14,668 nucleotides of DNA, taken from the NCBI GenBank assembly GCA_001831055.1, contig MIDO01000100.1, positions 1,683-16,350 of the forward strand, in the 5' to 3' direction. Shown piece by piece: positions 487 to 13,597 of the stretch (the stretch's first letter is position 1; each line of letters starts with the position of its first letter). The DNA comes from Verrucomicrobia bacterium GWC2_42_7. Lineage in GTDB: Bacteria; Verrucomicrobiota; Verrucomicrobiia; Opitutales; GWC2-42-7-A. The notes beneath the pieces were generated by a model that saw only the letters and a program-made list of their open reading frames with translations, had not been told where the DNA came from and did not search any database. Position numbers and translations under genes: made by a program.

Positions 487-702
487 CTTGCGCGAAGAGT
501 GAATTTGAAAAATTTGTTCTTCGCGCAAGTATCTTCTTTTCGAGAGAGAGGAAGAAAAACGTCAGTTCAATTCCTCGAGCAGGCGGACAAGGCGAATATG
601 AGGGAGCGTACATCCGTACGTGACCGAATGTGAGTCCGATGTCCAACACACTCGAGAATTGAAATCACGTTTTTCTATTGGGAGCCCAAAATGGGTCCCC
701 CA
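487..702 (+). repeat. Family Y composite upstream of ftsQ, split by X copy B
   Basis: The outer hairpin hp1 is at 487-529, with arms CTTGCGCGAAGA and TCTTCGCGCAAG around an AATTT/AAATT core. The linker TATCTTCTTTTCGAGAGAG (530-548) matches the linker of other composites in degenerate form. The expected hp2 is replaced by X copy B; only a right-arm relic (CCCAAAATGGGTCCCCC, about 684-700) remains, closest to the hp2 upstream of glyA (CCAAAATGGGTTCTCCC). I infer that copy B inserted between linker and hp2 and that the left arm was lost. Orientation is hp1 outside, hp2 toward ftsQ. Confidence 0.6.
553..676 (-). repeat. Family X palindromic element, copy B (inverted)
   Basis: This is the reverse-oriented X core: CTCGAGCAGGCGGACAAGG, then GAGGGAGCGTA, centre CATCCG, TACGTGACCGAATGTGA and GTCCAACACACTCGAG. 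Its terminal arms (GAAAAACGTCAGTTCAATTC on the left; the right arm reads AGAAAAACGTGATTTCAATT on the other strand) match each other but belong to a different arm subtype from copies A, C, D and F. There is no tail like those of A, D, E and F. A minus-strand 75-codon open frame across this copy is judged to be non-genic. Confidence 0.85.
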
Positions 703-734
703 AACCTTTCTTCCTTGCTTTTCTTTTTAAAGCG

Positions 735-772
735 CGAAAACTTTTCTTTTTTAGTGAAAAGGAAGGTTTTCG
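735..772. repeat. Hairpin hp3 upstream of ftsQ
   Basis: CGAAAACTTTTCTTTT pairs with GAAAAGGAAGGTTTTCG with few mismatches around a TTAGT loop. The sequence just before it (CTTTTCTTTTTAAAGCGCG) resembles the CTTTGGAAAGCGCG linker near the hp3 hairpins at 3216, 6799 and 13432. It lies 33 bases before the ftsQ start and may be part of the leader, or a terminator reading either way. Confidence 0.6.
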
Positions 773-805
773 AATTTTTCTAAAAATATAGTACACCGAT
801 TAAAT

Positions 806-1747
806 ATGGAGCATAGAGAGGACAAGAAGAGATTGTCATCATGGAGGGACATCGACCAAACGAAGGGGCATAGGTCGTTGACTCCGATTGCGCGTTGGAA
901 GAAGCTTCAGTACTATGGCAAGTTGATCGGGTCGGCGGCGATTGTGGTGTGTTGTGTTTTAGGGGCGTTGTGGGCTTTAAGGATTGTACAGATCAAATCG
1001 CGCTCTATACGCGTAGAGGGGGTAACGCAGATATTGAAGCGGATCGACTTTGAAACAGACGGTATTTTGACGGGTCAGTGGTGTAAAGATTTTTTAAAAT
1101 TGCCTGAAAGCGTGCCGTTTATGGATGTTAACTTATTCCAGGTGAAGACGCAGTTGGAATCCTTTGGGCAAGTGCGTTCGGTGGTGGTTGAGCGGCAATT
1201 TCCTGACACGCTCAAAATTCATATTGAGGAATACCGGCCTGTTTTACGTATAGCCGTGAAGGAAGATTCGAAACCGGCGCAATTGTTTTTAATTTCTAAA
1301 GAAGGTATTGTTTATCAAGGAGTTGGTTATCAACGTGAAATCATAGGTAAATTACCCTTTTTGACAGGTGTTCCGTTGAACAAGGTGGGAAACTCCTTTC
1401 AACGACTGGAGGGGATGGAGATCATTTCCCGATTGATAAGCCTGGCAAACATAAAGAAACCGCACTTGTATGCCAATTGGAAATCCCTCTCATGTGAACA
1501 GTTTGATCATAGGGTAGGGGCGGAGTGGTCGCGAATCCGCGTGTCGACCAAAGATGTGGGGGAAGTCATTTTTGGAACCCAAGACTTTTCTGAGCAGTTA
1601 GATAGATTAGATTTTATTGTGAAAAACCTAAAAGCGTCGCAAAAGGAAGGACGCGTAGAGTATATAGATTTATCGACAGATACACAGGCGGCCGTGCAAC
1701 TGACGAGTGTATTTACGGGCAAGAAACAATCTCAAGTCAGACAATAA
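806..1747 (+). CDS. ftsQ: Cell division protein FtsQ
   Basis: The product is a 313-residue bitopic inner-membrane protein that links FtsL/FtsB to the divisome in characterised bacteria. A basic cytoplasmic tail (1-38) precedes one membrane segment at about 40-60 (LIGSAAIVVCCVLGALWALR). A POTRA/FtsQ-type domain follows at about 66-135: IRVEGV, then VNLFQVKTQLESFGQVRSV, then VVERQFPDTLKIHIEEYRP, the typical second strand. The remaining 180 residues are the variable FtsQ beta domain (PFLTGVPL, and GRVEYIDLS near the end, where FtsQ proteins usually have YIDLR). ATG at 806 is the first start and has no clear Shine-Dalgarno sequence. ftsA starts one base after its stop. Identification rests on this architecture and the ddl/ftsA context. 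Confidence 0.9.
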   Translation: MEHREDKKRLSSWRDIDQTKGHRSLTPIARWKKLQYYGKLIGSAAIVVCCVLGALWALRIVQIKSRSIRVEGVTQILKRIDFETDGILTGQWCKDFLKLPESVPFMDVNLFQVKTQLESFGQVRSVVVERQFPDTLKIHIEEYRPVLRIAVKEDSKPAQLFLISKEGIVYQGVGYQREIIGKLPFLTGVPLNKVGNSFQRLEGMEIISRLISLANIKKPHLYANWKSLSCEQFDHRVGAEWSRIRVSTKDVGEVIFGTQDFSEQLDRLDFIVKNLKASQKEGRVEYIDLSTDTQAAVQLTSVFTGKKQSQVRQ

Positions 1748-1748
1748 G

Positions 1749-2942
1749 ATGAATAGTAAGATAGTAGGAGCGATCGAGATCGGAACTTCAAAAGTTATAG
1801 TGCTTGTCGGAGAAATTATCCGAGGAAATAGCCTCAACATTATTGGGGTATCAGAAATTCCATCGATTGGTGTCAAAAAAGGAGAAATGATCGATCTCAA
1901 AGCAGCGAGTCTCGTCACCCATGAAGCCATTCGAGCCGCAGAAAAGAGTTCAAAAGCGACTTTGGATAAAGCGTTTCTTGCACAAACGGGCAGCCATCTC
2001 ATGGGCATACAAAATACGGCGACTGTAAAAGTAAGATCGGCCGACAACATTATCAGTGCGTCCGATATCCAACGCGTACAAGAAGAAGCAAAATCAAAGG
2101 AATTAGATGCTCAACGCGTTTACGTTAACCACATTCGAAATTTTTTCAAAGTAGACAACAAAATAGTTGAAAACCCCATCGGTATGGAGGGACAACAATT
2201 GAGCGTAAGTTATTGGTCTATAAGTGGCGACGTGAATAGGATCAAGGATAGTTTGCGGGTCATCAATGGATTCGGGCTGGAAGTCGAAAACATGGTCATT
2301 TCAAGCGTCGCTTCGGGATCCATCGTCACCAGCGAAACAGAACGGAAAAACGGAGTACTGGTCATCGACATTGGCTGCGGCACAACCGACTATGTTGCAT
2401 ACAAGGACGGCGTCGTCATCAAAACAGGTGTGGTCCCCATCGGCGGAGACCACTTCACCAACGACTTAAGTTTGGGCTTAAGGGTTAATAACAAACACGC
2501 AGAAAAGCTCAAATTGGAAGTTGGGAAAGCTGTTATCGACGATAGCGACAAAGAAGAAAAAGTTTGGCTCATCGGCGGTCGTACCATTGGCGACAGAAAC
2601 GTAAAACGCCTCGCAATTTACCAAATTTTAAATGCCCGAGCAGAAGAACTTTTTGGCATTATCAAAAAGCAATTAAGTCCCATTGAAATAAGGGAGTTAT
2701 CTGCTGGAGTTGTCCTAACCGGAGGGTCCTCCCACTTAAGGAAAATCGACGAAGCGGCCAACAACGTACTCAACGCAGACATTCGGCTTGCAGAAAATCC
2801 AAATTGGGCCGATTCCGAACTTCGCGATCCCAAATACAGTACCGCCCTCGGCCTCCTTCACTACTCCTTAAAAACTAACAACCCCCATTTGCCCGAGGAG
2901 CAATCTGGTTTGTTTCATCGCTTGGCAAAGATGTTATTCTAA
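1749..2942 (+). CDS. ftsA: Cell division protein FtsA, actin-like ATPase
   Basis: The product is 397 residues. FtsA is a peripheral membrane protein that ties FtsZ polymers to the membrane. The phosphate-1 motif is at the N-terminus (GAIEIGTSKVIVLVGEI, 7-23), phosphate-2 is VLVIDIGCGTTDY at about residue 203, and the adenosine motif is VVLTGGSSHL at about 320. Residues between about 85 and 165 would be the 1C subdomain of FtsA. The C-terminus GLFHRLAKMLF is a short amphipathic basic/hydrophobic helix, as expected of the membrane-targeting tail. I chose ATG 1749 because the longer frame from 1707 overlaps ftsQ and adds 14 residues before the conserved start. The one-base gap to ftsQ implies co-transcription and probably translational coupling. 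ftsZ does not follow; a composite hairpin repeat does. Confidence 0.95.
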   Translation: MNSKIVGAIEIGTSKVIVLVGEIIRGNSLNIIGVSEIPSIGVKKGEMIDLKAASLVTHEAIRAAEKSSKATLDKAFLAQTGSHLMGIQNTATVKVRSADNIISASDIQRVQEEAKSKELDAQRVYVNHIRNFFKVDNKIVENPIGMEGQQLSVSYWSISGDVNRIKDSLRVINGFGLEVENMVISSVASGSIVTSETERKNGVLVIDIGCGTTDYVAYKDGVVIKTGVVPIGGDHFTNDLSLGLRVNNKHAEKLKLEVGKAVIDDSDKEEKVWLIGGRTIGDRNVKRLAIYQILNARAEELFGIIKKQLSPIEIRELSAGVVLTGGSSHLRKIDEAANNVLNADIRLAENPNWADSELRDPKYSTALGLLHYSLKTNNPHLPEEQSGLFHRLAKMLF

Positions 2943-2946
2943 ATTA

Positions 2947-3049
2947 CGGGGAAACTGCTTTTGGTCCCCCAAAAGCGTTTCCCCGAACCCCTTCCGAAAA
3001 GGAGGGACTTGCGCAGGAATAAAATTTTTCAAATTTTATTCCTGCGCAA
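2947..3049 (-). repeat. Family Y composite downstream of ftsA
   Basis: hp2 at 2947-2985 has arms CGGGGAAACTGCTTTTGG and CCAAAAGCGTTTCCCCG. The linker CCCCTTCCGAAAAGGAGGG (2988-3006) can itself fold with a CCGAA loop. hp1 at 3009-3049 has arms TTGCGCAGGAATAAAATTT and AAATTTTATTCCTGCGCAA, and is followed by GTTCTTTTTC. It begins five bases after the ftsA stop, with hp2 next to the gene. It may terminate ftsQA transcription; the T-run is weak. Confidence 0.85.
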
Positions 3050-3122
3050 AGTTCTTTTTCTGATTGGATTTGAGAAAGAGGTTTTTTATGGAGGGAATTT
3101 TTTATTTTTTATAAAATGATAT

Positions 3123-3151
3123 TGACAGTGTGCTCAAAAGACGCACAATGT
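3123..3151 (+). promoter_or_regulatory. Weak candidate sigma-70-like promoter
   Basis: A perfect TTGACA at 3123-3128 is followed after 17 bases by ACAATG (3146-3151), a poor -10. It would give a leader of about 390 bases before glyA that passes several hairpins. This rests on motif match only. Confidence 0.25.
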
Positions 3152-3195
3152 TTCCACTTTATTTTTTAAGGCGAGTTCTGTTTTTAATTTTGGAC

Positions 3196-3239
3196 AATTC
3201 GCTTTCCTTTGGAAAGTGCGAAAAGGGAGGTTTTCGCAC
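3196..3239. repeat. Linker plus hp3 hairpin in the ftsA-glyA gap
   Basis: CGCTTTCCTTTGGAAAGTGCG (about 3200-3220) folds on itself and overlaps a perfect hairpin at 3216-3239, GTGCGAAAA, loop GGGAGG, TTTTCGCAC. The same linker and hp3 start recur at 6780 and 13412. A second possible pairing, CACATAG (3237-3243) with CTATGTG (3259-3265), follows directly. Confidence 0.65.
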
Positions 3240-3308
3240 ATAGTGCTTTTAGGATGTCCTATGTGATCATTTTAGGATAAATAGTGGACAAAAATGTCTT
3301 TTTCATTC

Positions 3309-3334
3309 TAAATAAAATCGGCAGGTTTTATTTA
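3309..3334. repeat. Type II hp1-like hairpin
   Basis: TAAATAAAATC pairs with GGTTTTATTTA (one G-T pair) around GGCA. It has the AAAATC-NNNN-GATTTT centre seen at 3413, 6742 and 13369. Confidence 0.65.
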
Positions 3335-3412
3335 GTTCTTGGAGCCGCACGTGCGCGAGGGAAGCGCCTCAAAAATTCAAATTTCTTACAGAAATAAAGA
3401 ACGATATCTAGC

Positions 3413-3512
3413 GCTAAAATAAAATCGATAGATTTTACTTTAGCTCAAATAACTCCTTTTCGGAGACGGGTCTGGGGAGAACCCATTTTGGGCGACCAAA
3501 ATGGGTTCTCCC
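3413..3512 (+). repeat. Family Y composite upstream of glyA
   Basis: An outer hairpin of the AAAATC/GATTTT type is at 3413-3444 (arms GCTAAAATAAAATC and GATTTTACTTTAGC). The linker AACTCCTTTTCGGAGACGGG (3451-3470) is followed by hp2 at 3475-3512, a perfect 17-bp stem (GGGAGAACCCATTTTGG with CCAAAATGGGTTCTCCC, loop GCGA). hp2 ends 37 bases before the glyA start and would lie in the mRNA leader if transcription begins upstream. It brackets glyA together with the composite at 4810-4918. Confidence 0.85.
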
Positions 3513-3549
3513 TAGGAAAAAATTTAAAAGACAAAAGAAAGGTTATAAT

Positions 3550-4800
3550 ATGATTAATAAAATGTTATTAAGAGAAGTAGACGGAGAGATATTTAACTTA
3601 TGTGAACAAGAGAAGAAGCGGCAGCAGGAGCACGTAGAGCTTATTGCCTCGGAAAATTTTGTGTCGCCTGCTATTTTGGAAGCTGTTGGCAGTGTTTTAA
3701 CCAATAAGTATGCAGAGGGGTATCCTAATAAGCGTTACTATGGCGGGTGTGAATTTGTTGATCAAGTTGAACAAATTGCGATCGACCGCGCCAAGCAGCT
3801 TTTTGGAGCAGACCATGTAAACGTACAGCCGCATTCGGGGACACAGGCTAATATAGCTGTTTATTTAGCGATGCTGAAACCTGGAGATAAGATATTGACT
3901 ATGAGCCTCGAACATGGAGGCCACTTGACTCATGGGCATCCAAAGAATGTAAGTGGAATGTTATTTAAGGTAGTGCATTATGGAGTCAATTTGGAAACGG
4001 GCTATATTGACTATGACCAACTTGAAAAGTTGGCATTGGAAGAACGTCCCAAGATGATAACCGTGGGTGCCTCGGCTTATTCACGCACCATCGATTTTGA
4101 AAGAATGGGAGCCATTGCCAAAAAATCAGGCGCATGGCTTTTAGCAGACATTGCACACATAGCCGGTTTGGTCGCAGTGGGATTGCATCCATCGCCCATC
4201 AAACATTCGGACTTTGTCACAACGACGACCCACAAAACGCTTCGCGGTCCAAGGGGTGGCATCATAATGTGCAAAGAAGAACATGCCAAGGTACTTGATT
4301 CAGCCGTATTTCCTGGAGATCAAGGAGGTCCCTTAATGCACGTCATTGCAGGAAAAGCCGTTTGTTTTGGCGAAGCGTTGAAGCCCGATTTTAAAGATTA
4401 CCAAATGCAAATCCTCAAAAACACGAGGACTCTCGCCGATGAAATGGCACGCATGGGCTACAAGATTGTTAGCGGTGGAACAGACAATCATCTTTTCCTC
4501 GTCGATCTTAGAAAGTCTCATCCAGAAGTGACAGGAAAAGACGCGCAAGATGCTCTTTGTAAAGCAAATATTACCATCAATCGAAATGTTATTCCTGCAG
4601 AAACCAGATCCCCCTTCCTGACGAGCGGCATACGCCTAGGCAGCCCCGCAATGACAACCAGAGGGATGAAAGAACTCGAAATGGTAAAAATCGCACAAGC
4701 CATTAACAAGGTCCTAAACAACATCAACAACCCATCCATCATCGACTCCGTCAAGCAGGAGATGATGCAACTGTGCGCTTCCTATCCTCTCCCTTATTAG
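3550..4800 (+). CDS. glyA: Serine hydroxymethyltransferase
   Basis: The product is a 416-residue cytoplasmic PLP enzyme that interconverts serine plus tetrahydrofolate with glycine plus 5,10-methylene-tetrahydrofolate, the main source of one-carbon units. Length matches the bacterial family (417 in E. coli). Visible signatures are [18 protein letters not shown] near residue 30, [15 protein letters not shown] near 55, HSGTQAN near 98, and [14 protein letters not shown] with the PLP-binding lysine at residue 229, the same number as in E. coli. The C-terminal domain has [20 protein letters not shown], which contributes substrate-binding arginine. A good Shine-Dalgarno (AGAAAGG, 3536-3542) lies seven bases before ATG 3550. 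It is a single-gene unit with family Y composites on both sides, oriented inward. Confidence 0.98.
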
Positions 4801-4809
4801 AAAAACGTT

Positions 4810-4918
4810 TTGGGGAAAACTACTTTTGGTCCCCCAAAAGCGTTTTCCCCAAGCCCCTTTCCGAAAAGGAGACACTTACGCGGAGACAAAATTCCGTACG
4901 AATTTTGTCTCCGCGTAA
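4810..4918 (-). repeat. Family Y composite downstream of glyA
   Basis: hp2 at 4810-4852 has arms TTGGGGAAAACTACTTTTGG and CCAAAAGCGTTTTCCCCAA. The linker CCCCTTTCCGAAAAGGAG follows (4855-4872). hp1 at 4876-4918 is a perfect 19-bp stem, TTACGCGGAGACAAAATTC, around CGTAC. It starts nine bases after the glyA stop with hp2 facing the gene. The bases 4919-5061 after it hold nothing I can name. Confidence 0.87.
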
Positions 4919-5061
4919 AAACTTCTTTCGGAATTGGGAGTTGGAAGAAACGACTTTGATAGAGAGGTGCCTTTATTTACCTCAAAAAGAAAGGGGTTGG
5001 CTTCTTGTCACTTCCTCAGTACTAAAGACCGTTATTCCAAAAACTCTTCCGAAAGAGAACC

Positions 5062-5166
5062 TTGCGCAAAAGAAAATTTTGAAAAATTTTATTTTTGCGC
5101 AATTTCCTCCTTTTCCGAGGGGGCTTGGGGGAACGCTTTTGGGGAACCAAAAGCAGTTCCCCCAAG
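5062..5166 (+). repeat. Family Y composite downstream of the cysteine-protein gene
   Basis: hp1 at 5062-5102 starts TTGCGCAAAAGAAAATTTT and ends ATTTTTGCGCAA, slightly imperfect. The linker CTCCTTTTCCGAGGGGG (5107-5123) leads into hp2 at 5124-5166 (CTTGGGGGAACGCTTTTGG pairing with CCAAAAGCAGTTCCCCCAAG). hp2 ends four bases from the minus-strand stop at 5171-5173, so hp2 again faces its gene. It is convergent with the glyA composite. Confidence 0.87.
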
Positions 5167-5170
5167 ATTC

Positions 5171-5515
5171 TTACTCCAAATTTTCTTTCACAATATTAGC
5201 GGCGATGCGGACGCATTGGGTGCAGGGGGTGAGGTTTTTGGATCGGATTTCCTTGCAGAGGGCGGAACCGACTTCTTTGATGAAGCGGTCTTCGATGTGT
5301 TGTTGAGCGATGGGGTCTTTTAGGGATTTTGCTGCGAAGAGGGCCCCGCAAAGGCCTCCGGGAGCACGTCCACCTCCATAGGCCTTGAATTCGGCGATTT
5401 TTTCGGGGGATTGGTTAAAAGCCTTGAGTATGCATTGGGCGCAGTTGTAGCGTTCGGGCGGTTTATGGTACAGCTCTGCTGCGATGTCGCCGATGGATTT
5501 TGTATCGTCGTGCAT
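5171..5515 (-). CDS. C_GCAxxG_C_C family cysteine-rich protein
   Basis: The product is 114 residues from ATG 5513-5515 (MHDDTKSIGDIAAELYHK). It has the spaced cysteines and the GLCGALFAA motif that define the C_GCAxxG_C_C family: YNCAQCIL near residue 25, GGGRAPGGLCGALFAA near 48-63, SALCKEI near 88 and PCTQC near 99. Members are small, probably redox-active or metal-binding proteins of undefined function, often split from or fused to other redox proteins. A longer frame reaches 5641, but its first 42 residues come from repeat DNA (degenerate hp2 and X copy C), so I use the internal ATG. No Shine-Dalgarno is evident. mscS, upstream on the same strand, is separated from it by X copy C. Confidence 0.8.
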   Translation of the reverse strand: MHDDTKSIGDIAAELYHKPPERYNCAQCILKAFNQSPEKIAEFKAYGGGRAPGGLCGALFAAKSLKDPIAQQHIEDRFIKEVGSALCKEIRSKNLTPCTQCVRIAANIVKENLE

Positions 5516-5550
5516 GGTTTTTGATATAGAATTAGAAATCTCTAAAAACT

Positions 5551-5594
5551 TTGGGGAAACACATTTTTGTCCCCTAGAAAAGCGGTTTTTCCAA
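5551..5594. repeat. Degenerate hp2 hairpin
   Basis: TTGGGGAAACACATTTTTG and TAGAAAAGCGGTTTTTCCAA resemble the two arms of hp2 (GGGGAAACGCTTTTGG / CCAAAAGCGGTTTCCCC) with several mismatches. It lies between the cysteine-protein start and X copy C, so that gene also carries hp2-like sequence on both sides. Confidence 0.5.
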
Positions 5595-5719
5595 CAGAAA
5601 GTTGTTATTTTAAGTTTCGAGCAGGCGGACAAGGTGAACATGAGGGAGCGTACATGCGTACGTGACCGAATGTGAATCCGATGTCCAACACACTCGAAAC
5701 TTAAAATAACAACTTTCTG
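5595..5719 (-). repeat. Family X palindromic element, copy C (inverted)
   Basis: This is the cleanest copy: the terminal inverted repeats at 5595-5621 and 5693-5719 are identical over 27 bases (CAGAAAGTTGTTATTTTAAG then TTTCGAG). The core in reverse is GCAGGCGGACAAGG, GAGGGAGCGTA, centre CATGCG, TACGTGACCGAATGTGAATC and GTCCAACACA. Its edge is three bases past the mscS stop codon (5723-5725, minus strand). Confidence 0.9.
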
Positions 5720-5722
5720 GCC

Positions 5723-6505
5723 CTAGCTTTTTAATTCTCTCATCGCGATAATAGGGATCTTGTTTTGGGAGAGGGAATTTGTTATTTCTTTCAAAAGGGA
5801 ATTTTTGATTTCGTTGATCTGTTCTTTCTTGTACCAGAGTTCACAGGAGAACAGTAGATTGTAATTCCGAATCCCTTGGAAAACAACGGAGTACATTGGT
5901 TTTTTGACTATCAACGGGTTTTGTGAAAGGTTTCCTCGGAGGATGACCATGACGTCGTCGAGGTTGGATTCAATGGGGATCATTATTTCCAGATTTAGTC
6001 GCATCAAATCAAAGCGCGAACAGTTCACGAAGGGCATCTTGAGCAATTGTTCGTTCGGAATCCGAGTGAAAAGATTATCAGAGGTGCGGATTCTTATCGA
6101 AAGTAATCCGATGGCCTCAACAGACCCTTTCATGTTTCCATGTTGGATAACATCCCCAATCTGAAAGGACTTCTCTCCTAATAAAAGAAAGCCACTTATG
6201 AAATTGGAAATAGTGGTCTGCATGGCAATACCGAGTGCAATCGAGACCACGCCTGCCGCTCCCAAAAACGCGGATAAATTGATCCCAATTCCCATCAGTA
6301 TGGTAGAAATCAACAACAACGATCCTCCATAGAAAACTGCCTTTTTGACAATCACTGTGTGGCTCGGAGCCAATTTCCCCTTCGTAAGTTTTTCCGCAAG
6401 CTTGGAAAAATATATTAGCAAAGGAAATCCTATCACCGCTGTCACCACAACTCGGGCAAACTGCGCTATCGTACTTAATGAAATGTGTAATTCCGAAAAA
6501 TGCAT
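5723..6505 (-). CDS. MscS-family mechanosensitive channel
   Basis: The product is 260 residues from ATG 6503-6505. MscS channels are inner-membrane heptamers that open under membrane tension to release solutes on osmotic downshock. Hydrophobic segments lie at about residues 10-33 and 52-72, then the pore helix TM3 (AAGVVSIALGIAMQTTISNF, the family's glycine/alanine-rich pattern). The beta domain follows (GEKSFQIGDVIQHGNMKGSVEAIGL, ...TRIPNEQLL...FVNCSR), which matches the MscS signature around the conserved P-N and N-x-S-R. The length fits a minimal three-TM channel (286 in E. coli). A GTG at 6548-6550 would add 15 residues, but it lies inside the hp2 loop, so I prefer the ATG. Neither start has a good Shine-Dalgarno. 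Confidence 0.9.
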   Translation of the reverse strand: MHFSELHISLSTIAQFARVVVTAVIGFPLLIYFSKLAEKLTKGKLAPSHTVIVKKAVFYGGSLLLISTILMGIGINLSAFLGAAGVVSIALGIAMQTTISNFISGFLLLGEKSFQIGDVIQHGNMKGSVEAIGLLSIRIRTSDNLFTRIPNEQLLKMPFVNCSRFDLMRLNLEIMIPIESNLDDVMVILRGNLSQNPLIVKKPMYSVVFQGIRNYNLLFSCELWYKKEQINEIKNSLLKEITNSLSQNKIPIIAMRELKS

Positions 6506-6526
6506 ATGTGGATAATTTAAGGGATT

Positions 6527-6636
6527 TTGGGTAAAACCGCTTTTAGTCACCTAAAAGCTGTTTTCCCCAAGCCCCTTTCCGAAAAGGAGGTTCTTTGAGT
6601 GAAAACAAATTTTTTCAAAATTTGCTTTCACTCAAA
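6527..6636 (-). repeat. Family Y composite upstream of mscS
   Basis: hp2 at 6527-6570 has arms TTGGGTAAAACCGCTTTTAG and CTAAAAGCTGTTTTCCCCAA. The linker CCCCTTTCCGAAAAGGAGG is at 6572-6590. hp1 at 6594-6636 starts TTTGAGTGAAAACAAATTT and ends AAATTTGCTTTCACTCAAA. Its stem bases are wholly different from the TTGCGC stems elsewhere, yet still paired. hp2 faces the mscS gene. The bases between this element and 6742 hold no feature I can support. Confidence 0.85.
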
Positions 6637-6741
6637 AATATCTTTTTCCGCTGGACTCGTTGAAAATATGGAAGTCTTTAGAGGAAGAGCATTTCCCTTT
6701 GTACACAAGGGGGATAGTTGAAAATCGACTCAGCAAAGCTT

Positions 6742-6840
6742 CGAGCAAGCAAAATCTGTAGATTTTGCTTGCTCGATTTCCGCTTTTCTTTGGAAGGGCC
6801 GGGAAACCTTTCTTTTCCCGCGAAAAGAAAGGTTTCCCGG
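6742..6840 (+). repeat. Type II composite downstream of pal
   Basis: The outer hairpin at 6742-6775 is a perfect 15-bp stem (CGAGCAAGCAAAATC, loop TGTA). The linker CCGCTTTTCTTTGGAAGGG (6780-6798) leads to hp3 at 6799-6840, a perfect 18-bp stem (CCGGGAAACCTTTCTTTT, loop CCCGCG). hp3 ends nine bases from the pal stop (minus strand), so it may act as the pal terminator, though no U-tract follows. The polarity is the same as in family Y: the hairpin with the C/T-rich arm faces the gene. Confidence 0.8.
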
Positions 6841-6848
6841 AATCCAGT

Positions 6849-7460: not shown

Positions 7461-7469
7461 GCCAGAAAG

Positions 7470-7622
7470 AAGAAAGATGTTATTTTAACTTTCGAGTTCG
7501 TTGGGATGCGGATTCACATTCGGTCACGTACGTATGTACGCTCCCTCGCCCTCACCTTGCCCGCCTGCTCGAAAACTTAAACTAACATCTTTCTGCGGGA
7601 TCATACCAAGAAAACAGTAAAA
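7470..7622 (+). repeat. Family X palindromic element, copy D
   Basis: The left arm AGAAAGATGTTATTTTAACT then TTCGAG starts at about 7470. The right arm CTCGAAAACTTAAACTAACA then TCTTTCTG ends at 7595, and the variable GATGTT of the arms is shared. The core has GTTGGGATGCGGATTCACA, GGTCACGTA, centre CGTATG, TACGCTCCCTC and TTGCCCGCCTG. The tail CGGGATCATACCAAG then A-rich sequence follows. It is 64 bases upstream of pal. Confidence 0.85.
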
Positions 7623-7740: not shown

Positions 7741-7789
7741 TTCTGCGGGATTATGCAAAATCTTTCTGCGGCACTATGAAAAATGTTAA

Positions 7790-7852: not shown

Positions 7853-7905
7853 TTCACTTTTCTTCTTTTAACAGAGATTTCCAAAGCTCATCCAAAAGAA
7901 GAGCT

Positions 7906-8040
7906 TTGCGCGGAATAAAAATTCCGAAAGGAATTTTTATTCCGCGCAAGCATCTCCTTTTCGGAAGGGGCTGGGGGAAACGCTTTTGGGTGACCAAAAG
8001 CAGTTTCCTCGAAGTTTTCTGGGTGACCCAAAAGCACTTC
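7906..8040 (+). repeat. Family Y composite upstream of oppA, hp2 duplicated
   Basis: hp1 at 7906-7949 is a perfect 20-bp stem (TTGCGCGGAATAAAAATTCC, loop GAAA). The linker CTCCTTTTCGGAAGGGG is at 7954-7970. hp2 at 7971-8010 has arms CTGGGGGAAACGCTTTTGG and CCAAAAGCAGTTTCCTC. A second, shorter hp2-like hairpin follows at 8011-8040 (GAAGTTTTCTGGG / CCCAAAAGCACTTC). hp2 faces oppA. Confidence 0.85.
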
Positions 8041-8102
8041 CCCCAAAATCTACCCCTTTCTACTTGTCATTTAGAGAAGAAGGTGTAATTAATTCTAGAG
8101 GT

Positions 8103-9719
8103 ATGATGAGGCAAATGGTCGTATATTTGATGGGGATGTTTCTACTTGCTGGGTGTAAGAAGGTGGAGACTGTGGTGGATAAGGGGACGGCGGAGCAGAC
8201 TCTCTTAATGAGTATTGGGCCGTATTTTACGACGTTGGACCCGCAGTTGATGACACTTGCATCCGACATGCATGTAGCGCGTGCGTTGTTTGAAGGGCTG
8301 TTAAGCCCAGACCCCAAGGATTTGCATCCGGTGCCGGGGGTAGCGGAGTCGTGGGAAATGTCGAAGGATGGACTTACTTATACTTTTCACTTGAGGCCTG
8401 AAGCTAGGTGGTCGAACGGGGAACGTTTGACGGCCGGAGATTTTGTATTTTCATATAAACGAATACTTTCTGCTGCATTGGGCTCTGAGTCTGCCAATTT
8501 TCTATATGTGATAAAGAATGGAGCGGCGTATCATAAAAAGGAGATTGAGGATTTTTCAGCGGTTGGGGTAAGGGCGTTGGACGACCATACCTTGCAGTTC
8601 ACTTTGGAGAATCGGACTCCCTATTTTCTCACATTGATTTTAAATCCGGCGTGGTATCCCGTACACGAAAAGACTCTCTTGCAATGCGGAGCCATCGACC
8701 AAAGGGATTCTTCTTGGACACAGGTGGGGCGGATTATTACCAATGGGCCTTTTGTGCTAAAATCTTTGAAGCCGGATGAAAAGATTATTTTAGAAAAAAA
8801 CCTTCATTATTGGGGAGCTAAGGATGTAAGATTAAGGAAAATCCATTTTTTATTGATTCCTGATATGAATACGGAAGAGCGTGCCTTTAGGGATCACCAA
8901 TTGCACATCACTGAAAATGTTCCTTTCCCTCAAATCCTCAAATACGTAAAAAAGCATTCACCGCATTTGAAGATAAGTCCTTACCTAGGAACTTATTGCT
9001 ATGTTTATAATACAACGCAAGCCCCTCTCAATGACGTACGGGTCAGAAAAGCGTTGTCCATGGCCATTAATCGCCGGATAATCGTGGGTACAGACCGTGT
9101 TATGTGCAAATATAGGGCTGCTTATACCTTCGTTCCGGAAAATACAGCCAATTATACAAATCCCAAAAGGATTGTGGAAGACATAGAATTAGCAAAAAAG
9201 TTGTTGGCGGATGCGGGTTATCCCAACGGTCAAGGTTTTCCAAAAATTACGTTAACTTTCAATACCTCTGAAAGCCACCGATTTAATGCCGAAGTGATAC
9301 AGGAGATGTGGAAGAAAAACCTGAACATAGATGTTCAACTGACGAACTTAGAATGCAAAGACATGTTTGCGCGTCGGCGTCAGAAGCAATTTCAGATTAC
9401 ACGTGGGCCCGGCATAGGCGATTACAACGACGCAACCTCTTTTCTTAACATGTGGGAATCCCGCTCTGTTAATAACTATAGTGGTTGGAGTAATGCGCGT
9501 TACGATGAATGCCTCCGATTGGCTTCATTGACAGAGAGTTCAGATGAGCGCTTAAAATTGCTGCAAGAGGCAGAGACTCTCTTACTTAATGAAATGCCTC
9601 TGTTAATTTTGCACTCTAATAATGTAACTCACTTGGTGGATACAAGTGTTAAGAACTGGTATCCCAACATATTAGATTGGCATCCTTATCAATCTATATA
9701 CCTTGAATCGTCGAAATAA
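8103..9719 (+). CDS. oppA: Oligopeptide ABC transporter substrate-binding lipoprotein
   Basis: The product is 538 residues in the SBP_bac_5 (OppA/DppA) family. It binds peptides outside the inner membrane and delivers them to OppBC. The signal peptide has lipobox LLAGC with the lipidated cysteine at 18. Family hallmarks are IGPYFTTLDPQL, ARALFEGLLSPDP, PGVAESWEMSKDGLTYTFHL, SNGERLTAGDFVFSYKRIL, TNGPFVLKSL, PLNDVRVRKALSMAINR and AKKLLADAGYPNGQGFP. The longer frame from 7986 reads through hp2 repeats, so ATG 8103 is chosen (8106 is equally possible; AGAGG at 8097-8101 fits 8106 better). The stop overlaps the oppB start by one base (TAATG), so the genes are translationally coupled. Confidence 0.95.
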   Translation: MMRQMVVYLMGMFLLAGCKKVETVVDKGTAEQTLLMSIGPYFTTLDPQLMTLASDMHVARALFEGLLSPDPKDLHPVPGVAESWEMSKDGLTYTFHLRPEARWSNGERLTAGDFVFSYKRILSAALGSESANFLYVIKNGAAYHKKEIEDFSAVGVRALDDHTLQFTLENRTPYFLTLILNPAWYPVHEKTLLQCGAIDQRDSSWTQVGRIITNGPFVLKSLKPDEKIILEKNLHYWGAKDVRLRKIHFLLIPDMNTEERAFRDHQLHITENVPFPQILKYVKKHSPHLKISPYLGTYCYVYNTTQAPLNDVRVRKALSMAINRRIIVGTDRVMCKYRAAYTFVPENTANYTNPKRIVEDIELAKKLLADAGYPNGQGFPKITLTFNTSESHRFNAEVIQEMWKKNLNIDVQLTNLECKDMFARRRQKQFQITRGPGIGDYNDATSFLNMWESRSVNNYSGWSNARYDECLRLASLTESSDERLKLLQEAETLLLNEMPLLILHSNNVTHLVDTSVKNWYPNILDWHPYQSIYLESSK

Positions 9720-10639
9720 TGCTAAAATTCATTCTAAAGCGCATATTGGAGTCGGTTCCGGTACTGTTTGTAATTGTCACACTGACTTTTTTCCTGGCAA
9801 AATGGGTACCCGGGGGACCCTTTGATGGCGAAGCTGGACTTTCTAAAGAAACACTTCAATCCTTGAATGCGCATTACGGGTTCGATCAACCCCTCTATGT
9901 GCAGTATGGGCGTTATCTTAACAACTTGATACACGGCGACTTGGGCCCTTCCATTAAAAAACAAGGAATAAGCGTCAATAGCTTGTTGAAAAGCCGGGTT
10001 CCTACGAGCATGAAACTCGGATTTATGGCTGTTTGCTTTGCTGCTTTTTTCGGAATCGTCATGGGGACACTCGCTGCGGCCAAGCCTAATACCCGAACTG
10101 ACCATACTTTGATGGGGTTTTCGATGACAGGCATTTGTCTTCCTGCGTTCGTCCTCGGCCCATTGCTTGTTCTTGTTTTTTCCCTAAAACTCAATTGGTT
10201 AAATGCCGTTGGCTGGGAGAATCCTAGTGATTGTATCCTCCCTGTTGTCACCCTGGGATTAATGTATTCGGGTTACATTGCAAGACTTATGCGAGCAAGC
10301 ATGCTAGAGGTTCGAAATCAGGATTATATGAGAACGGCCTTTGCGAAAGGGCTGTCCATTGTCCGTGTCTTATTTGTTCACGGGCTCCGTAACGCGGTCC
10401 TTCCGGTGGTGACCTATCTTGGTCCCACGACAGCTGCCCTTATTAGCGGTTCCTTGATCATAGAAACCGTCTTTAATATTGCAGGTGTCGGGCGGCTTTT
10501 TATCAATGCCGTTTCCGAACGCGATGATACGGTGATAATTGGGGCTGTTTTATTCTATTCTATCTTGATAATCACCTGCAACTTGTTGGTTGATATCGCA
10601 ATCGCCATCCTCAATCCAAAACAAAAACTCGAATCTTAG
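9719..10639 (+). CDS. oppB: Oligopeptide ABC transporter permease OppB
   Basis: The product is a 306-residue inner-membrane permease with about six hydrophobic segments. Its N-terminus (LKFILKRILESVPVLFVIVT, then LTFFLAKWVPGGPF) is typical of OppB/DppB, whose first helix is followed by the conserved PGDP-like turn. The binding-protein-dependent transport motif (EAA loop) is near residue 205: RTAFAKGLSIVRVLFVHGLR then NAVLPVVT, which docks on the ATPase. The C-terminal part (ISGSLIIETVFNIAGVGRL, then AVSERDDTVIIGAVLFYSI) is also family-specific. The start overlaps the oppA stop, and oppC follows after eight bases. Confidence 0.96.
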   Translation: MLKFILKRILESVPVLFVIVTLTFFLAKWVPGGPFDGEAGLSKETLQSLNAHYGFDQPLYVQYGRYLNNLIHGDLGPSIKKQGISVNSLLKSRVPTSMKLGFMAVCFAAFFGIVMGTLAAAKPNTRTDHTLMGFSMTGICLPAFVLGPLLVLVFSLKLNWLNAVGWENPSDCILPVVTLGLMYSGYIARLMRASMLEVRNQDYMRTAFAKGLSIVRVLFVHGLRNAVLPVVTYLGPTTAALISGSLIIETVFNIAGVGRLFINAVSERDDTVIIGAVLFYSILIITCNLLVDIAIAILNPKQKLES

Positions 10640-10647
10640 GCCCTTCC

Positions 10648-11520
10648 ATGCGCGATAAAACCCGGACTCACTTAATTGCTTTATGGAAAGATGCTTGGGG
10701 TCGTCTTTTCGAAAACCGCTTGGCTGTCCTGAGTACGATCTTCTTATTCATTATTGCTATTTTTTGCATTTTTGGACCACTTCTCTCTCCCTATTCCTAT
10801 CACGAACAAGACCTTTTATTGGGAGCAGAGGGTCCTTCCATAGAACACTGGTTTGGTACAGATTTGTTAGGTCGCGACCTCCTTACGCGCATGCTATACG
10901 GTGGTCGCATTTCTCTCGCAGTTGGTCTGGCAGCTACTTTTGTATCCCTCACAATAGGGGTCTTCTATGGGTCAATCGCAGGCTTAGTCGGCGGCCGAAT
11001 CGATAGGCTTCTCATGCGCTTCATCGATATCATCTACCCGATGCCCTTTACCTTGGTCGTCATTTTATTGATGGTGTACTGTGGCAGAAATATCATCCTC
11101 CTCTTCATGGCAATCGGCTGCATGAAATGGCTCACTATGGCCAGAATTGTCAGAAATCAGATCATCACCCTCAAAAATCAACAATTTGTAGAAGCGTCTC
11201 GCAGTATTGGACAAACCTCCTTTGGCATACTAAAAAAACACCTCATCCCCAATCTCTTGGGTGTTATCATGGTCTATGCCACGCTCAATATCCCAGGCAT
11301 CCTCCTAGAAGAAGCCTTTTTGTCTTTCCTCGGACTCGGAGTCCAACCCCCCATGAGCTCCTGGGGCCTCCTCATCCTCGACGGCGCAAATGCCATGGAA
11401 ATCTACCCATGGATCCTCGTATTCCCAGGAATCTTCTTCTCCCTAACCCTTTTTTGTTTCAACTTCCTCGGGGATGGACTGAGGGATGCTTTGGATCCTC
11501 GATCAGACAAGAAAATGTAG
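10648..11520 (+). CDS. oppC: Oligopeptide ABC transporter permease OppC
   Basis: The product is 290 residues, the second permease. The N-terminal cytoplasmic helix and first membrane segment (about 25-47) are followed by HWFGTDLLGRDLLTRMLYGG, the OppC/DppC signature. The EAA loop is at about 180 (FVEASRSIGQTSFGILKKHL, IPNLLG), and EEAFLSFLGLGVQPPMSSWG with FLGDGLRDALDPR is the conserved end. The C-terminus is complete apart from a short tail, so the family X element at the stop has not removed essential sequence. The stop TAG at 11518-11520 coincides with the first bases of X copy E. No oppD or oppF ATPase gene follows; ATPases must come from elsewhere if the system works. Confidence 0.96.
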   Translation: MRDKTRTHLIALWKDAWGRLFENRLAVLSTIFLFIIAIFCIFGPLLSPYSYHEQDLLLGAEGPSIEHWFGTDLLGRDLLTRMLYGGRISLAVGLAATFVSLTIGVFYGSIAGLVGGRIDRLLMRFIDIIYPMPFTLVVILLMVYCGRNIILLFMAIGCMKWLTMARIVRNQIITLKNQQFVEASRSIGQTSFGILKKHLIPNLLGVIMVYATLNIPGILLEEAFLSFLGLGVQPPMSSWGLLILDGANAMEIYPWILVFPGIFFSLTLFCFNFLGDGLRDALDPRSDKKM

Positions 11521-11668
11521 AAAGAGGTTAGTTTAAGTTTCGAGTGTGTTGGGCTACGGATTCGTGCTCGGTCACGTATTTAAATACGCTCCGTCGTGTT
11601 CGCCTTGTCCGCCTGCTCAAAAATTGAACGGATGTTTTTCTAGGGGATTATGCAAAGGAGGTAAAAGA
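11518..11668 (+). repeat. Family X palindromic element, copy E (chimeric arms)
   Basis: The left arm TAGAAAGAGGTTAGTTTAAG then TTTCGAG is of the first subtype. The right arm CTCAAAAATTGAACGGATGT then TTTTCTA (ending 11642) is of the second subtype, so the two ends do not pair well. The core is otherwise standard: TCGGTCACGTA, centre TTTAAA, TACGCTCCGTC, TTGTCCGCCTG. The tail GGGGATTATGCAAAGGAGG follows. The oppC stop codon is the first three bases of the element. Confidence 0.85.
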
Positions 11669-11669
11669 G

Positions 11670-11719
11670 TTTCAACTTTTGAGTGTGTTGGGCTTGAGGA
11701 TTCGCGCTTCGTCACGTAC
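11670..11719 (+). repeat. Truncated family X element
   Basis: TTTTGAGTGTGTTGGGCTTG and GAGGATTCGCGCTTCGTCAC, then GTAC, match the left half of X up to the palindrome centre. It stops there and copy F begins within three bases. No matching right half is found downstream of F, so this is a truncation, not a clean insertion. Confidence 0.75.
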
Positions 11720-11721
11720 TG

Positions 11722-11872
11722 CAGAAAGAGGTTAGTTTAAGTTTCGAGTGTGTTGGGCAGCGGACTCACATTCGGTCATGTACCAACACACTCCCTCATG
11801 TTCCCCTTGCCCGCCTTCTCGAAAGCTTAAACTAACCTCTTTCTGGGGGCTATGCAAAGAGAGCAAAAGGAC
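11722..11872 (+). repeat. Family X palindromic element, copy F
   Basis: The left arm (11722-11748, CAGAAAGAGGTTAGTTTAAG then TTTCGAG) and the right arm ending at 11845 share the GAGGTTAGTTTAAG variant. The centre is altered (GGTCATGTACCAACACACTCCC written as GGTCATGTAC, CAACACACTCCC), two bases shorter than the others, which breaks the reading frame shared by other copies. The tail CTATGCAAAGAGAGCAAAAG ends next to a minus-strand stop codon (11873-11875). Confidence 0.85.
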
Positions 11873-12025
11873 TTACTGGTCCCACGTGGTCCCAGCAAAA
11901 AGAATGTTGTCTTTTTCTAACTTCCCTAAAACTCTACCTACAGTTGCCATAATTTCACTTAAATTGGCAGAATCGTTGCCATTTTTTGTTATTTTTGGCG
12001 GAAGTGGTTGAAAGGATTTAATTCG
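11873..12025 (-). pseudogene. Possible 3' remnant of an unidentified gene (minus)
   Basis: A minus-strand frame of 50 codons ends with TAA at 11873-11875 and reads SFQPLPPKITKNG, NDSANLSEIMATVGRVLG, KLEKDNILFAGTTWDQ. The residue mix looks like real protein, but there is no start before an upstream TAA, except an internal ATG (MATVGRVLGKLEKDN) that would give 25 residues. X copy F begins its tail right at the stop, as other X copies do at true gene ends. I do not recognise the family. Confidence 0.3.
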
Positions 12026-12130
12026 TTAGCAGATGGGGTCTTCAAGTTAAATGAAATGGATAAGGCTATTAGAGGTCTGTTCAGAAAATGGATTATAAAG
12101 GGTAGTATTGAAAAGGCTCTACCCTTTTAA
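11963..12130 (+). pseudogene. Possible remnant of an unidentified gene (plus)
   Basis: A plus-strand frame of 55 codons ends with TAA at 12128-12130. It includes NSLADGVFKLNEMDKAIRG then LFRKWIIKGSIEKALPF, which looks protein-like, but the frame has no convincing start and overlaps the minus-strand remnant for its first 60 bases. Transposase or phage debris is possible; I see no signature to decide. The two remnants may be two decayed genes joined together. Confidence 0.25.
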
Positions 12131-12159
12131 CGATTTAAGACCCATTACTTAATTACTTT

Positions 12160-13029
12160 TCAATCAATTGGAAGTCGTCTCAAACATTCCCCATCGGTGA
12201 TTTGGTTGCACAATGAAAGGTCGAGCGAGGTGAGACTAGGTAAATATCTTAGGAATTCCTCACTGGTGATTTGGAAGCAACCGCCAAGGTTGAGCCAGGT
12301 GAGATTAGGTAAAGATCTTAGGAATTCCCAATTGGTGATTCGTTTGCACAATGAAAGGTTGAGCGAGGTGAGATTAGGTAAAGATTTCAGGAATTCCCCA
12401 TTGGTGATTTGGGTGCACCCTGAAAGGTCGAGCGAGGTGAGATTAGGTAAAGATTTTAAAAATTCCCCATTGGTGATTTGGGTGCACCCTGAAAGGATGA
12501 GCGAGGTGAGATTAGTTGGCAATACGGCAAGATCTTCGTTAGTAGCGTCCCTTAGTTGTACATTGGTTATATTTTTGTGAGAAGCAAAAAACATTCTAAG
12601 ATTATCTGCTTTCATCATTTTACAGTTAATTGCACTACTCTTTTGCTGATCGCGTTTACTTTGGACAAGCTTATATAAAGCCTTATTTGTTTTAGCTAAG
12701 TTTGCTAAGTCGCTTTCAGACAAATAGTTTAAAACGGTTTGTAGCATGGGATCATTCATCTCAGCCGAATCGATATTAACTATACCCTGACTAGATGATT
12801 GAGCAGCACTTTCTTCTGATGCTACAGGCTCTCCGATTGGTTTTTCGGGGCTCTCATTTTTCTCTGGATTTACGACCATATCTAGACGCAATGATTCTTC
12901 CTCGGGAGACAAGGCCTGTCTTGCAGCAGCTTGTACCAATGGTGAAGGCGCGTCTTTCACTGCTTCAGCCAAATTCATAAAGAGTGGCATCACTGCCACT
13001 GCTTTCAATAGGTATTTTATGTTTTTCAT
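12160..13029 (-). CDS. Exported F-box-like / leucine-rich repeat protein
   Basis: The product is 289 residues. A Sec-type signal peptide is likely (MKNIKYLLKAVAVMPLFMNL, AEA; cleavage near 23). A Pro/Glu/Ser-rich linker runs to about 90. Residues 94-122 (DPMLQTVLNYLSESDLANLA, KTNKALYKL) fit the F-box pattern P-x-(L)-x-x-V-L-x-x-L-S-x-x-D-L-x-x-L-x-x-x-x-K-x-L-Y-x-L. From 173 to 287 come five 23-residue cysteine-type LRRs (LTSLDLSGCTQITNGEFLKS, LPN), the kind paired with F-boxes in eukaryotic FBXL proteins. By inference it is a host-directed effector that could recruit a substrate to an SCF ubiquitin ligase. A secretion route past the periplasm is not visible. The gene lacks the bracketing composites of its neighbours and ends right after the last LRR, without a cap. 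Confidence 0.75.
   Translation of the reverse strand: MKNIKYLLKAVAVMPLFMNLAEAVKDAPSPLVQAAARQALSPEEESLRLDMVVNPEKNESPEKPIGEPVASEESAAQSSSQGIVNIDSAEMNDPMLQTVLNYLSESDLANLAKTNKALYKLVQSKRDQQKSSAINCKMMKADNLRMFFASHKNITNVQLRDATNEDLAVLPTNLTSLILSGCTQITNGEFLKSLPNLTSLDLSGCTQITNGEFLKSLPNLTSLNLSLCKRITNWEFLRSLPNLTWLNLGGCFQITSEEFLRYLPSLTSLDLSLCNQITDGECLRRLPID
12169..12513 (-). repeat. Five 69-bp tandem LRR-coding repeats
   Basis: Five in-frame 69-bp units encode residues 173-195, 196-218, 219-241, 242-264 and 265-287. The first two differ by very little (LILSGCTQITNGEF versus LDLSGCTQITNGEF), which indicates recent duplication; the later units have diverged at the solvent-exposed positions. Confidence 0.92.
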
Positions 13030-13063
13030 AATTAGTGTCTTTGTTTTAATTAAGTATTTGTGC

Positions 13064-13092
13064 TTTAAACATTAAAATATTATATTTGTCAA
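13064..13092 (-). promoter_or_regulatory. Candidate promoter for the F-box/LRR gene
   Basis: On the minus strand TTGACA (13092-13087) is spaced 17 bases from TTTAAA (13069-13064), in a very A+T-rich stretch about 35 bases before the start codon. Confidence 0.35.
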
Positions 13093-13203
13093 TACTTATT
13101 AAAAAAACGGTGGATTCAACTTAGAAGTGCAACAGGGGCTGAGGTTTTTATAACAGCTTGATTTTTTCCTGATTTTCTATTGAAAGAGACTCTGATTAAC
13201 TAT

Positions 13204-13255
13204 AGACTGGGGTCTATTGCCTTGCATTTCTACCAAAAACAATAGACCCCAGTCT
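13204..13255. repeat. Perfect 16-bp inverted repeat with 20-base loop
   Basis: AGACTGGGGTCTATTG (13204-13219) is exactly complementary to CAATAGACCCCAGTCT (13240-13255). It is unrelated to families X and Y. It could be a bidirectional terminator between the kinase and the LRR gene, or the collapsed ends of a small mobile element. No poly-T run follows on either strand. The bases 13093-13203 before it show nothing else. Confidence 0.75.
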
Positions 13256-13368
13256 TTGTAATTATTCTATTTATTATTAATATGTGATATTCTTTCTCTA
13301 TAGTTTCCTGAACGATTCCAACACCCCCATTCTCAAGTGTATTGAGTATAACTGCAACTCCTTTTCCC

Positions 13369-13442
13369 TCGCCCAAGAAAAATCGCTAGATTTTTCTTGG
13401 GCGATATTCGTTTTTGTTTGGAAAGCGCGAAAACTTTTCTTT
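13369..13442 (+). repeat. Type II composite, hp3 truncated
   Basis: The outer hairpin at 13369-13404 is a perfect 16-bp stem (TCGCCCAAGAAAAATC, loop GCTA). The linker TTCGTTTTTGTTTGGAAAGC then GCGAAAACTTTTCTTT contains the hp3 left arm seen at 735, but no right arm follows. It lies outside the composite at 13495 and points the same way, toward the kinase. Confidence 0.7.
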
Positions 13443-13494
13443 AATGTCTTATGTAATAAAGGCCGTTTCAAAAACTCCATTACGAAAAAGAAAT

Positions 13495-13597
13495 TTTGCG
13501 CGGGAATAAATTTTTAAAAATTTATTCCCGCGCAAATATCTCCTTTTCGGAGGTGTTTAGGGGAACTGCTTTTGGGGGACCAAAAGCGGTTCCCCTA
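13495..13597 (+). repeat. Family Y composite at the kinase 3' end
   Basis: hp1 at 13495-13536 is a perfect 42-base palindrome with no unpaired loop (arm TTTGCGCGGGAATAAATTTT, T). The linker CTCCTTTTCGGAGG is at 13540-13553. hp2 at 13558-13597 (GGGGAACTGCTTTTGG / CCAAAAGCGGTTCCCC) overlaps the last 13 codons and stop of the kinase gene. Confidence 0.88.

Follow-up and report, generated by a model that had tools for sequence, protein, structure and literature searches.

The gaps between genes of Verrucomicrobia bacterium GWC2_42_7 carry a repeated element in which two hairpins, hp1 and hp2, are joined by a linker, and in which hp2 is usually the hairpin nearest a gene. The element was found in a 14,668-nt stretch of contig MIDO01000100.1 (positions 1,683 to 16,350), referred to here as the window, which belongs to a draft genome (G000) of 1,296,502 bases in 133 contigs that is 64% complete. 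It is present in high copy number, is oriented with respect to genes, has covarying stems, recurs in two genomes from other families, and folds better on one strand, which follows the orientation of the element rather than that of the gene. We consider it probable, at roughly 0.6, that two families of this plan, types A and B, constitute a new superfamily of non-coding palindromic repeats that resemble repetitive extragenic palindromic (REP) sequences and bacterial interspersed mosaic elements (BIMEs), invade intergenic regions, and lie hp2-first at gene ends.

A type A unit of about 103 nt consists of hp1 (mostly 41-44 nt, with 19-20 pairs in most window copies), usually 4 nt, the linker CTCCTTTTCGGAAGGGG, and hp2 (about 40 nt). 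The original prediction, made from the letters of the window alone, listed eight such composites with hp2 nearest a gene in every one. The linker and hp1 are present at all eight sites, and seven complete composites were annotated with a hidden Markov model (HMM):

487 to 705, plus strand: broken type A copy facing the ftsQ 5' end, with hp1 at 487-529, linker at about 533-551, family D palindrome at 553-675 and hp2 remnant at about 680-705 (by eye)
2948 to 3049, minus strand: type A copy, with hp2 at 2948-2984, linker at 2986-3003 and hp1 at 3009-3049; the ftsA stop codon is 5 nt from hp2
3411 to 3513 (HMM 3411-3512), plus strand: type A copy, with hp1 at about 3413-3447, linker at 3453-3469 and hp2 at about 3474-3513; the glyA 5' end lies on the hp2 side
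4810 to 4918 (HMM 4813-4917), minus strand: type A copy; the glyA stop codon is 9 nt from hp2
5062 to 5165 (HMM 5062-5163), plus strand: type A copy, hp2 towards the 3' end (5171) of the C_GCAxxG_C_C gene on the minus strand
6530 to 6638 (HMM 6530-6633), minus strand: type A copy, hp2 towards the 5' end (called start 6505) of the MscS-like gene on the minus strand
7905 to 8010 (HMM 7906-8009), plus strand: type A copy; the called start of SBP_bac_5 (8115) is about 105 nt from hp2
13495 to 13597 (HMM 13496-13595), plus strand: type A copy, hp2 overlapping the histidine kinase 3' end

Seven of these are clean cases of the predicted polarity. The first is not: a family D palindrome has broken its hp2, the HMM match (488-543, plus strand) covers only model positions 1-57 of 103 (55%), and the intact hairpin nearest ftsQ (735-772) belongs to a partial type B copy. 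Gene 5' ends are faced at four of the eight sites and 3' ends at the other four, in agreement with the prediction that both gene ends are used and that polarity is independent of gene strand. The copy at 2948-3049 has the highest covariance-model score in G000 (117.5 bits). In the last copy, hp2 (13557-13597) encodes the final residues of the histidine kinase, with the stop codon at its linker edge; of the 79 type A copies located at 3' ends, 5 overlap a called gene end.

Type B follows the same plan in different letters (hp1B, the linker CGCTTTTCTTTGGAAGGG and hp2B), and family D is a 127-nt palindromic repeat, with window copies at 262-388, 553-675, 5595-5717, 7472-7598, 11520-11645 and 11724-11848. 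The type B copies of the window, and the D copy that splits the 487 composite, are as follows:

716 to 771, plus strand: partial type B copy (linker side and hp2B) towards ftsQ, by HMM
3181 to 3224, plus strand: partial type B copy in the ftsA-glyA gap, by HMM
6741 to 6840, plus strand: type B composite, by HMM
13366 to 13442, plus strand: type B copy (78% of the model) beside the type A copy at 13495, by HMM
553 to 675, minus strand: family D palindrome splitting the 487 composite, by sequence repeat and HMM

Across 40 contigs of G000, HMM annotation gave 134 full and 40 partial copies of A, 82 and 37 of B, and 64 and 10 of D. A D copy lies within 28 nt after the linker in 11 of 185 type A linkers. 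Among 79 full D copies from 60 contigs, 19 are at most 12 nt from a stop codon, and several supply the stop codon themselves (TAG or TGA running into AAAG).

These numbers are far from chance. In G000 there are 241 occurrences of the 12-mer CTCCTTTTCGGA (122 and 119 by strand) and one of the reversed pattern; in 34 relatives the 12-mer has 0-4 occurrences per genome. The 17-letter linker pattern CTCCTTTTCGGAARGGG was counted 164 times in G000, and 371 other genomes of the order lack it. A covariance model built from 71 type A copies (R1) matched at least 150 sites in G000, where 150 of 2389 candidates were scored. Searches with the exact linker returned 47 single, chance-like matches from a collection of genome contigs, in which the window's own genome is possibly not included, and two single matches from viral contigs. 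At the Rfam gathering score there were no matches in the window and only tRNAs at nine loci from three genomes; one weak, chance-like match was seen in a 3-kb stretch.

Polarity was counted on 60 of the 133 contigs of G000: a first set of 40, of which 17 had been picked (16 for many matches and one as the window's own) and 23 had not, and 20 held-out contigs, fetched later and scored with the gene caller and HMMs frozen. Genes were called with a simple hexamer open reading frame (ORF) caller, which places start codons, and with them the distances to 5' ends, only approximately. When copies with a midpoint inside a called gene are left out, hp2 makes up 139 of the 150 type A element sides, and 68 of the 82 type B ones, that lie within 70 nt of a gene; within 120 nt, the counts are 162/187 and 86/115. 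Among 153 linker matches (at most one mismatch) on the first 40 contigs, hp2 was nearest a gene in 118 and hp1 in 14, with 9 inside ORFs and 12 lacking a flanking gene pair. The unpicked contigs alone gave 35 hp2-nearest against 6 hp1-nearest (3 inside, 10 at edges), and the held-out contigs gave 27 against 7 for type A (1 inside, 3 at edges) and 24 against 8 for type B (1 and 6). The fixed polarity that had been proposed is strong but is not strict. Neither random orientation nor a mostly intragenic placement was found, with 9 of 153 linker matches in ORFs and the two-copy gaps described below divided 65:18:0.

Of the type A copies facing a gene with hp2, 86 are at 5' ends and 88 at 3' ends, with median distances of 56 and 18 nt respectively, and 5' ends account for 58 of the 139 hp2-facing sides within 70 nt. 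Those facing with hp1 number 21 at 5' ends and 33 at 3' ends, at medians of 226 and 149 nt. The distance from hp2 to a called start ranges from overlap to more than 200 nt, and that from hp2 to the stop codon has a median of 17-18 nt. So short a distance would suit elements acting at mRNA 3' ends in the manner of E. coli REPs, by protection from decay or by ribosome stalling near the stop codon, with the 5' copies as by-products of inverted pairing. E. coli REPs less than 16 nt from a stop codon are reported to lower translation (PMC12306157), and the close copies in the two related genomes described below are nearly all at 3' ends. The near equality of 5' and 3' copies in G000 runs counter to this explanation, as does the better-folding strand, which is antisense to the mRNA at 3' ends, and we regard it as improbable.

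Where a gap holds exactly two composites (n=83), 65 pairs are hp2-out, 18 point in the same direction and none is hp2-in (56/12/0 in the first set, 9/6/0 in the held-out set); a B+ B- neighbour pair, which is hp2-in, occurs in five first-set gaps with three or more composites. Which type occupies one half of a gap does not depend on the type in the other half (33, 21, 20 and 11; p 0.82, first 40 contigs), and the two genes that flank a gap tend to have one copy each. Copies sharing a gap are about as alike as random ones (hp1 similarity 0.68 against 0.62, n=21). Fixed inverted pairing is common among REP families, so hp2-out pairs can give gene-facing polarity without any boundary function, and the polarity by itself does not support the insulators or cassette borders that the original prediction had suggested.

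That prediction also offered cassette borders used in recombination. Gene runs with elements on both sides (n=165) are most often bracketed hp2/hp2 (90 runs), which is what borders for site-specific recombination would look like, but the 90 hp2/hp2 and 14 hp1/hp1 runs are close to the 87.8 and 11.8 given by independent ends. The copies flanking a unit are of the same type in 58 of 77 cases on the first 40 contigs (Fisher p 2e-4), a tendency found post hoc. Permutation within contigs gave p 0.02, and 0.13 with full copies only and 0.26 on unpicked contigs. On the 20 held-out contigs the tendency did not repeat (8 of 13; 7, 2, 3 and 1; odds ratio 1.2, a small sample), and same-type bracketing of transcription units is not claimed here. 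Copies around one unit are also no more alike than random pairs (0.725 vs 0.720, n=27). One hp1/hp1 run, of three genes, does contain a tyrosine recombinase (Phage_integrase, E 5.6e-52; L110 13079-13978), with hp1 facing it from both sides; it is probably a chromosomal XerC/D protein, and is the only recombinase seen in such a run. With the types in gap halves independent as well, cassette borders are very improbable. The same recombinase, and the resemblance of hp2-out pairs to terminal inverted repeats, could be taken to mean that A- and A+ copies are the ends of a transposon with its own transposase. It is a single case, however: no transposase was seen when the other 13 hp1/hp1 runs were read by eye and five of the proteins they encode were compared with Pfam, and the spacers of paired copies share, by eye, only a degenerate stretch beside hp1. 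Of all the explanations weighed here, this one appears the least credible.

The stems show far more compensatory change than control alignments. Over 71 copies, 95.8% of stem cells are standard pairs, against 83.7% in shuffled alignments and at most 67.3% with slid partners, and double-sided changes affect 271 cells, in 17 of 26 pairs, where shuffling gives 74 and sliding no more than 96. These double-sided changes are confined to hp1 and hp2. The linker had been predicted to fold as well, and 97.9% of its cells are paired, but double-sided changes are absent from all six of its pairs. Of 151 contexts examined for simple inverted repeats with no gaps allowed, 31 gave no hp1 and 74 no hp2; hp2 stems are bulged and some copies are degraded. 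An inverted copy of the linker and half of hp2 was sought before hp1 in 131 flanks; scores of at least 10 were reached by 17 in the first 50 bases, 6 in the next and 21 in the third, where the matches are probably neighbouring elements, and by no shuffled flank. These matches are no more than suggestive of a symmetric ancestral palindrome for the composite.

The strand running from hp1 to hp2 is the more stable one whichever gene end is faced. With copies containing N, cut copies and copies lacking a recognised linker excluded, this holds for type A in 52 of 65 5'-facing copies, where it is the sense strand, and 65 of 74 3'-facing copies, where it is antisense; for type B the counts are 31/36, 24/28 and, for copies facing no gene, 22/25. 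A strand-neutral count of stem pairs that leaves out the linker gave 223 GT against 153 AC overall, with types A and B and their two hairpins pooled (102 vs 74 at 5' ends, 100 vs 63 at 3' ends and 21 vs 16 where no gene is faced). Hairpins acting in the mRNA of an upstream gene should make the 3' copies lean the other way. Copies at 5' and 3' ends also showed no difference in HMM bits (A p 0.15, B p 0.22), minimum free energy (p 0.67) or T content beyond hp1 (p 0.54, first window tried), and so gave no terminator signature specific to 3' copies. Both the strand and the equality of 5' and 3' copies speak against a terminator acting at the mRNA level.

The principal competing explanation is that the composites are functional gene-boundary elements, either bidirectional terminators or protein-bound insulators, kept by selection. 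Strong gene-facing polarity at both gene ends and in both types would be expected of such elements, as would a separate copy for each gene end in a gap irrespective of type, the better fit of gene-facing copies to the family models, and the return of polarity, near 3' ends, in two genomes from other families. A consensus scan of the window found hp1 copies to be most of the best terminator-like matches, several of them on both strands, and an effect of hp1 on transcription is possible from its sequence. The likeness of 5' and 3' copies in conservation, T content and stability, and the better folding of the antisense strand at 3' ends, tell against it. Furthermore, the T-rich stretch has its maximum some 8-11 bases past hp1, the consensus shows no T-run immediately after hp2 on its outward strand, the variable distance from hp2 to the start would allow a promoter on either side of the element, and the 17-letter linker pattern is absent from the rest of the order, as counted above. 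On balance we find a boundary function unlikely.

Diverged relatives were found in two genomes from other families of the same order, G012 and G022. R1 matched at least 29 sites in G012 (best E 1e-10) and at least 15 in G022 (best E 1.4e-7), with 115 candidates scored per genome, and there was no match among the 115 candidates scored in each of 32 other relatives. Over 344 genomes of the order, only G000 and G012 had matches among the 11 candidates scored per genome, a depth at which absence elsewhere is weak. The stretches used for polarity were cut around covariance-model matches and are not a random sample. In 293 kb of G012 there are 27 full copies, with hp2 at most 70 nt from a 3' end in 19 and from a 5' end in none; in the other eight, all more than 70 nt away, hp2 points towards a 5' end in seven and a 3' end in one. 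The 80 kb of G022 yielded 18 matches, with many mirror matches to the two strands among them, and nine of ten inspected were kept: hp2 is at most 40 nt from a 3' end in seven, and 33 nt and 94 nt from a 5' end in one each. The strand from hp1 to hp2 is again the more stable, in 14 of 16 folded copies from G012 and 8 of 9 from G022, chosen from 32 and 18 matches with near-identical and mirror matches excluded.

By eye, the three genomes have in common the linker core TTTT..GG..AAGGGG and the hp2 start GGGGAAAC, but not the linker hairpin. Fourteen G012 copies have a common longer right part, and ten of these a common left part as well. The outer ends of the longer copies look by eye like inverted repeats that change in step. 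A stop codon lies at or near the end of 11 of the 14, which would be in keeping with a mobile element. Symmetric copies, arranged hp2-linker-hp1-linker-hp2, were also seen by eye in G012 and are perhaps the ancestral form. Examples of both are:

L153 5958-6054, L148 1987-2082, L158 7445-7542 and others: longer elements carrying hp1-linker-hp2, by eye
L151 7433-7589, L155 8923-9077 and L165 7594-7727: symmetric hp2-linker-hp1-linker-hp2 copies, by eye

Taken as a REP-like invader, the element would spread in trans, probably by way of a folded single strand running from hp1 to hp2. The outer end of the unit would be hp2, which would settle beside a gene end, and two units in a gap would usually lie hp2-out, one for each flanking gene. 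This arrangement, together with entry at gene ends, may be what gives the polarity, and any effects on transcription would be secondary.

Several results weigh against such an invader. Pairing alone is insufficient for the polarity: copies lacking a detected partner still face a gene with hp2 (20 of 25 for type A, 16 of 21 for type B), and mixed A/B pairs are mostly gene-facing too, which leaves room for gene-end targeting or selection. The asymmetry between hp1 and hp2 may be due in part to a degenerate arm that extends some 50 nt past hp1, and after 50 nt are allowed for it hp2 is nearer in 18 of the 25 partnerless type A copies. Gene-facing copies score higher with the family models (70.3 and 65.6 bits for A, against 51.1 when no near gene is faced; 60.0 and 53.6 bits for B, against 46.5), a difference that would equally be produced by selection for a role at the gene. 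The linker pairs may be inherited from a single master copy, and the linker-free GT excess is modest, with p <0.05 in only 1 of 12 classes. The REP-associated tyrosine transposase (RAYT) domain, Y1_Tnp, was not found in G000 (64% complete), G012 (91%) or G022 (97%), in a search whose control was positive in 5 of 14 known genomes. RVT_1, DEDD_Tnp_IS110 and the TnpB-type zinc ribbon were not found in G000 at 64% completeness, other families not having been sought.

One may also go further than a REP-like superfamily and see a new class of palindromic mobile element, set at either end of transcription units, in unpaired and mixed-family copies too, with the outer hairpin fixed towards the gene, by RAYT-independent machinery that recognises the hp1-to-hp2 strand in its folded form. 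Its range in one lineage would have widened from 3' ends to include 5' ends as well, and it would now bracket a large part of the genes. We put this forward as a tentative and rather unlikely extension.

The genes of the window are, in order, the end of a D-Ala ligase gene, ftsQ, ftsA, glyA, and those for a C_GCAxxG_C_C protein, an MscS-like channel and an OmpA-like protein, followed by the SBP_bac_5 transport gene with two more open frames, a leucine-rich repeat (LRR) protein and the histidine kinase. The closest named relatives of its FtsA, at about 48-53% identity, include Rubellicoccus and Cerasicoccus, both Puniceicoccales of the class Opitutia, and a Puniceicoccales bacterium; the host is of the Puniceicoccales/Opitutales type (Verrucomicrobiota). 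The C-terminal part of the D-Ala ligase (window 2-259) is in a different frame from the upstream called ORF, which ends at about 92, and this break within window 1-259 is a frameshift, a pseudogene or an assembly error. LRR proteins are encoded at window 12160-13029 and L081 4403-5299; the window protein is encoded with repeats of 69 nt and matches the F-box only weakly, under the curated cut-off.

A description of the element did not turn up in the open-licence literature searched, and among known systems four are comparable. Mitochondrial repetitive hairpin elements are likewise single or double hairpins between genes, but belong to organelles, and the terms orientation and polarity are absent from the main text of the paper describing them (PMC2800124). 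Miniature inverted-repeat transposable elements (MITEs) and other bacterial miniature palindromic insertions are similar in being non-coding and palindromic and in size range. What look by eye like terminal inverted repeats occur in some longer G012 copies, which mostly end at stop codons, and in D palindromes, whereas type A and B units of G000 show none of their own. Bidirectional intrinsic terminators share the strong hp1-like hairpin, the T-rich flanks and, in several copies, terminator-like matches on both strands; the present elements differ in often lying upstream of genes too, in having no T-run directly after hp2, and in having no conservation specific to 3' ends.

REP sequences and BIMEs, together with REP doublets forming hairpins (REPINs), are the nearest analogue, as originally proposed. 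The element nevertheless falls outside the definition of the GTAG and CGTC superfamilies. Units of those superfamilies are about 20-60 nt with one imperfect palindrome, whereas the element here has 103 nt with two long hairpins and a linker; a GTAG or CGTC tag is absent at the ends of its consensus (TTGCGC...CCCC), beyond which the flanks look variable and were not aligned; and no RAYT, as would be required for the GTAG group, was found. CGTC REPs are said to have no dedicated transposase (PMC3733652), so the missing RAYT leaves that group possible. Two families of one plan occur here, copies in G000 are about equally frequent at 5' and 3' gene ends, and unpaired and mixed-family copies are polar too. 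What emerges is a repeat superfamily in genomes of three families of one order, REP-like but lacking the tag or a transposase that could be found, and REP-like spread might thus have more than one engine. Its strong orientation at both gene ends offers a testable case for the placement of short repeats relative to transcription units, with the polarity kept across families as a natural comparison set. The likenesses to REPs, BIMEs and REPINs, as reported, are these: hundreds of extragenic copies and palindromes with compensatory changes (PMC3733652, PMC3116915); a preference for inverted dimers, head-head or tail-tail, with head-tail dimers absent or rare in most families (PMC3733652); and a position near stop codons, which are sometimes supplied by the repeat itself (PMC3733652, PMC3116915). 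Strand-specific recognition of a folded strand has been reported for TnpAREP (PMC8266576).

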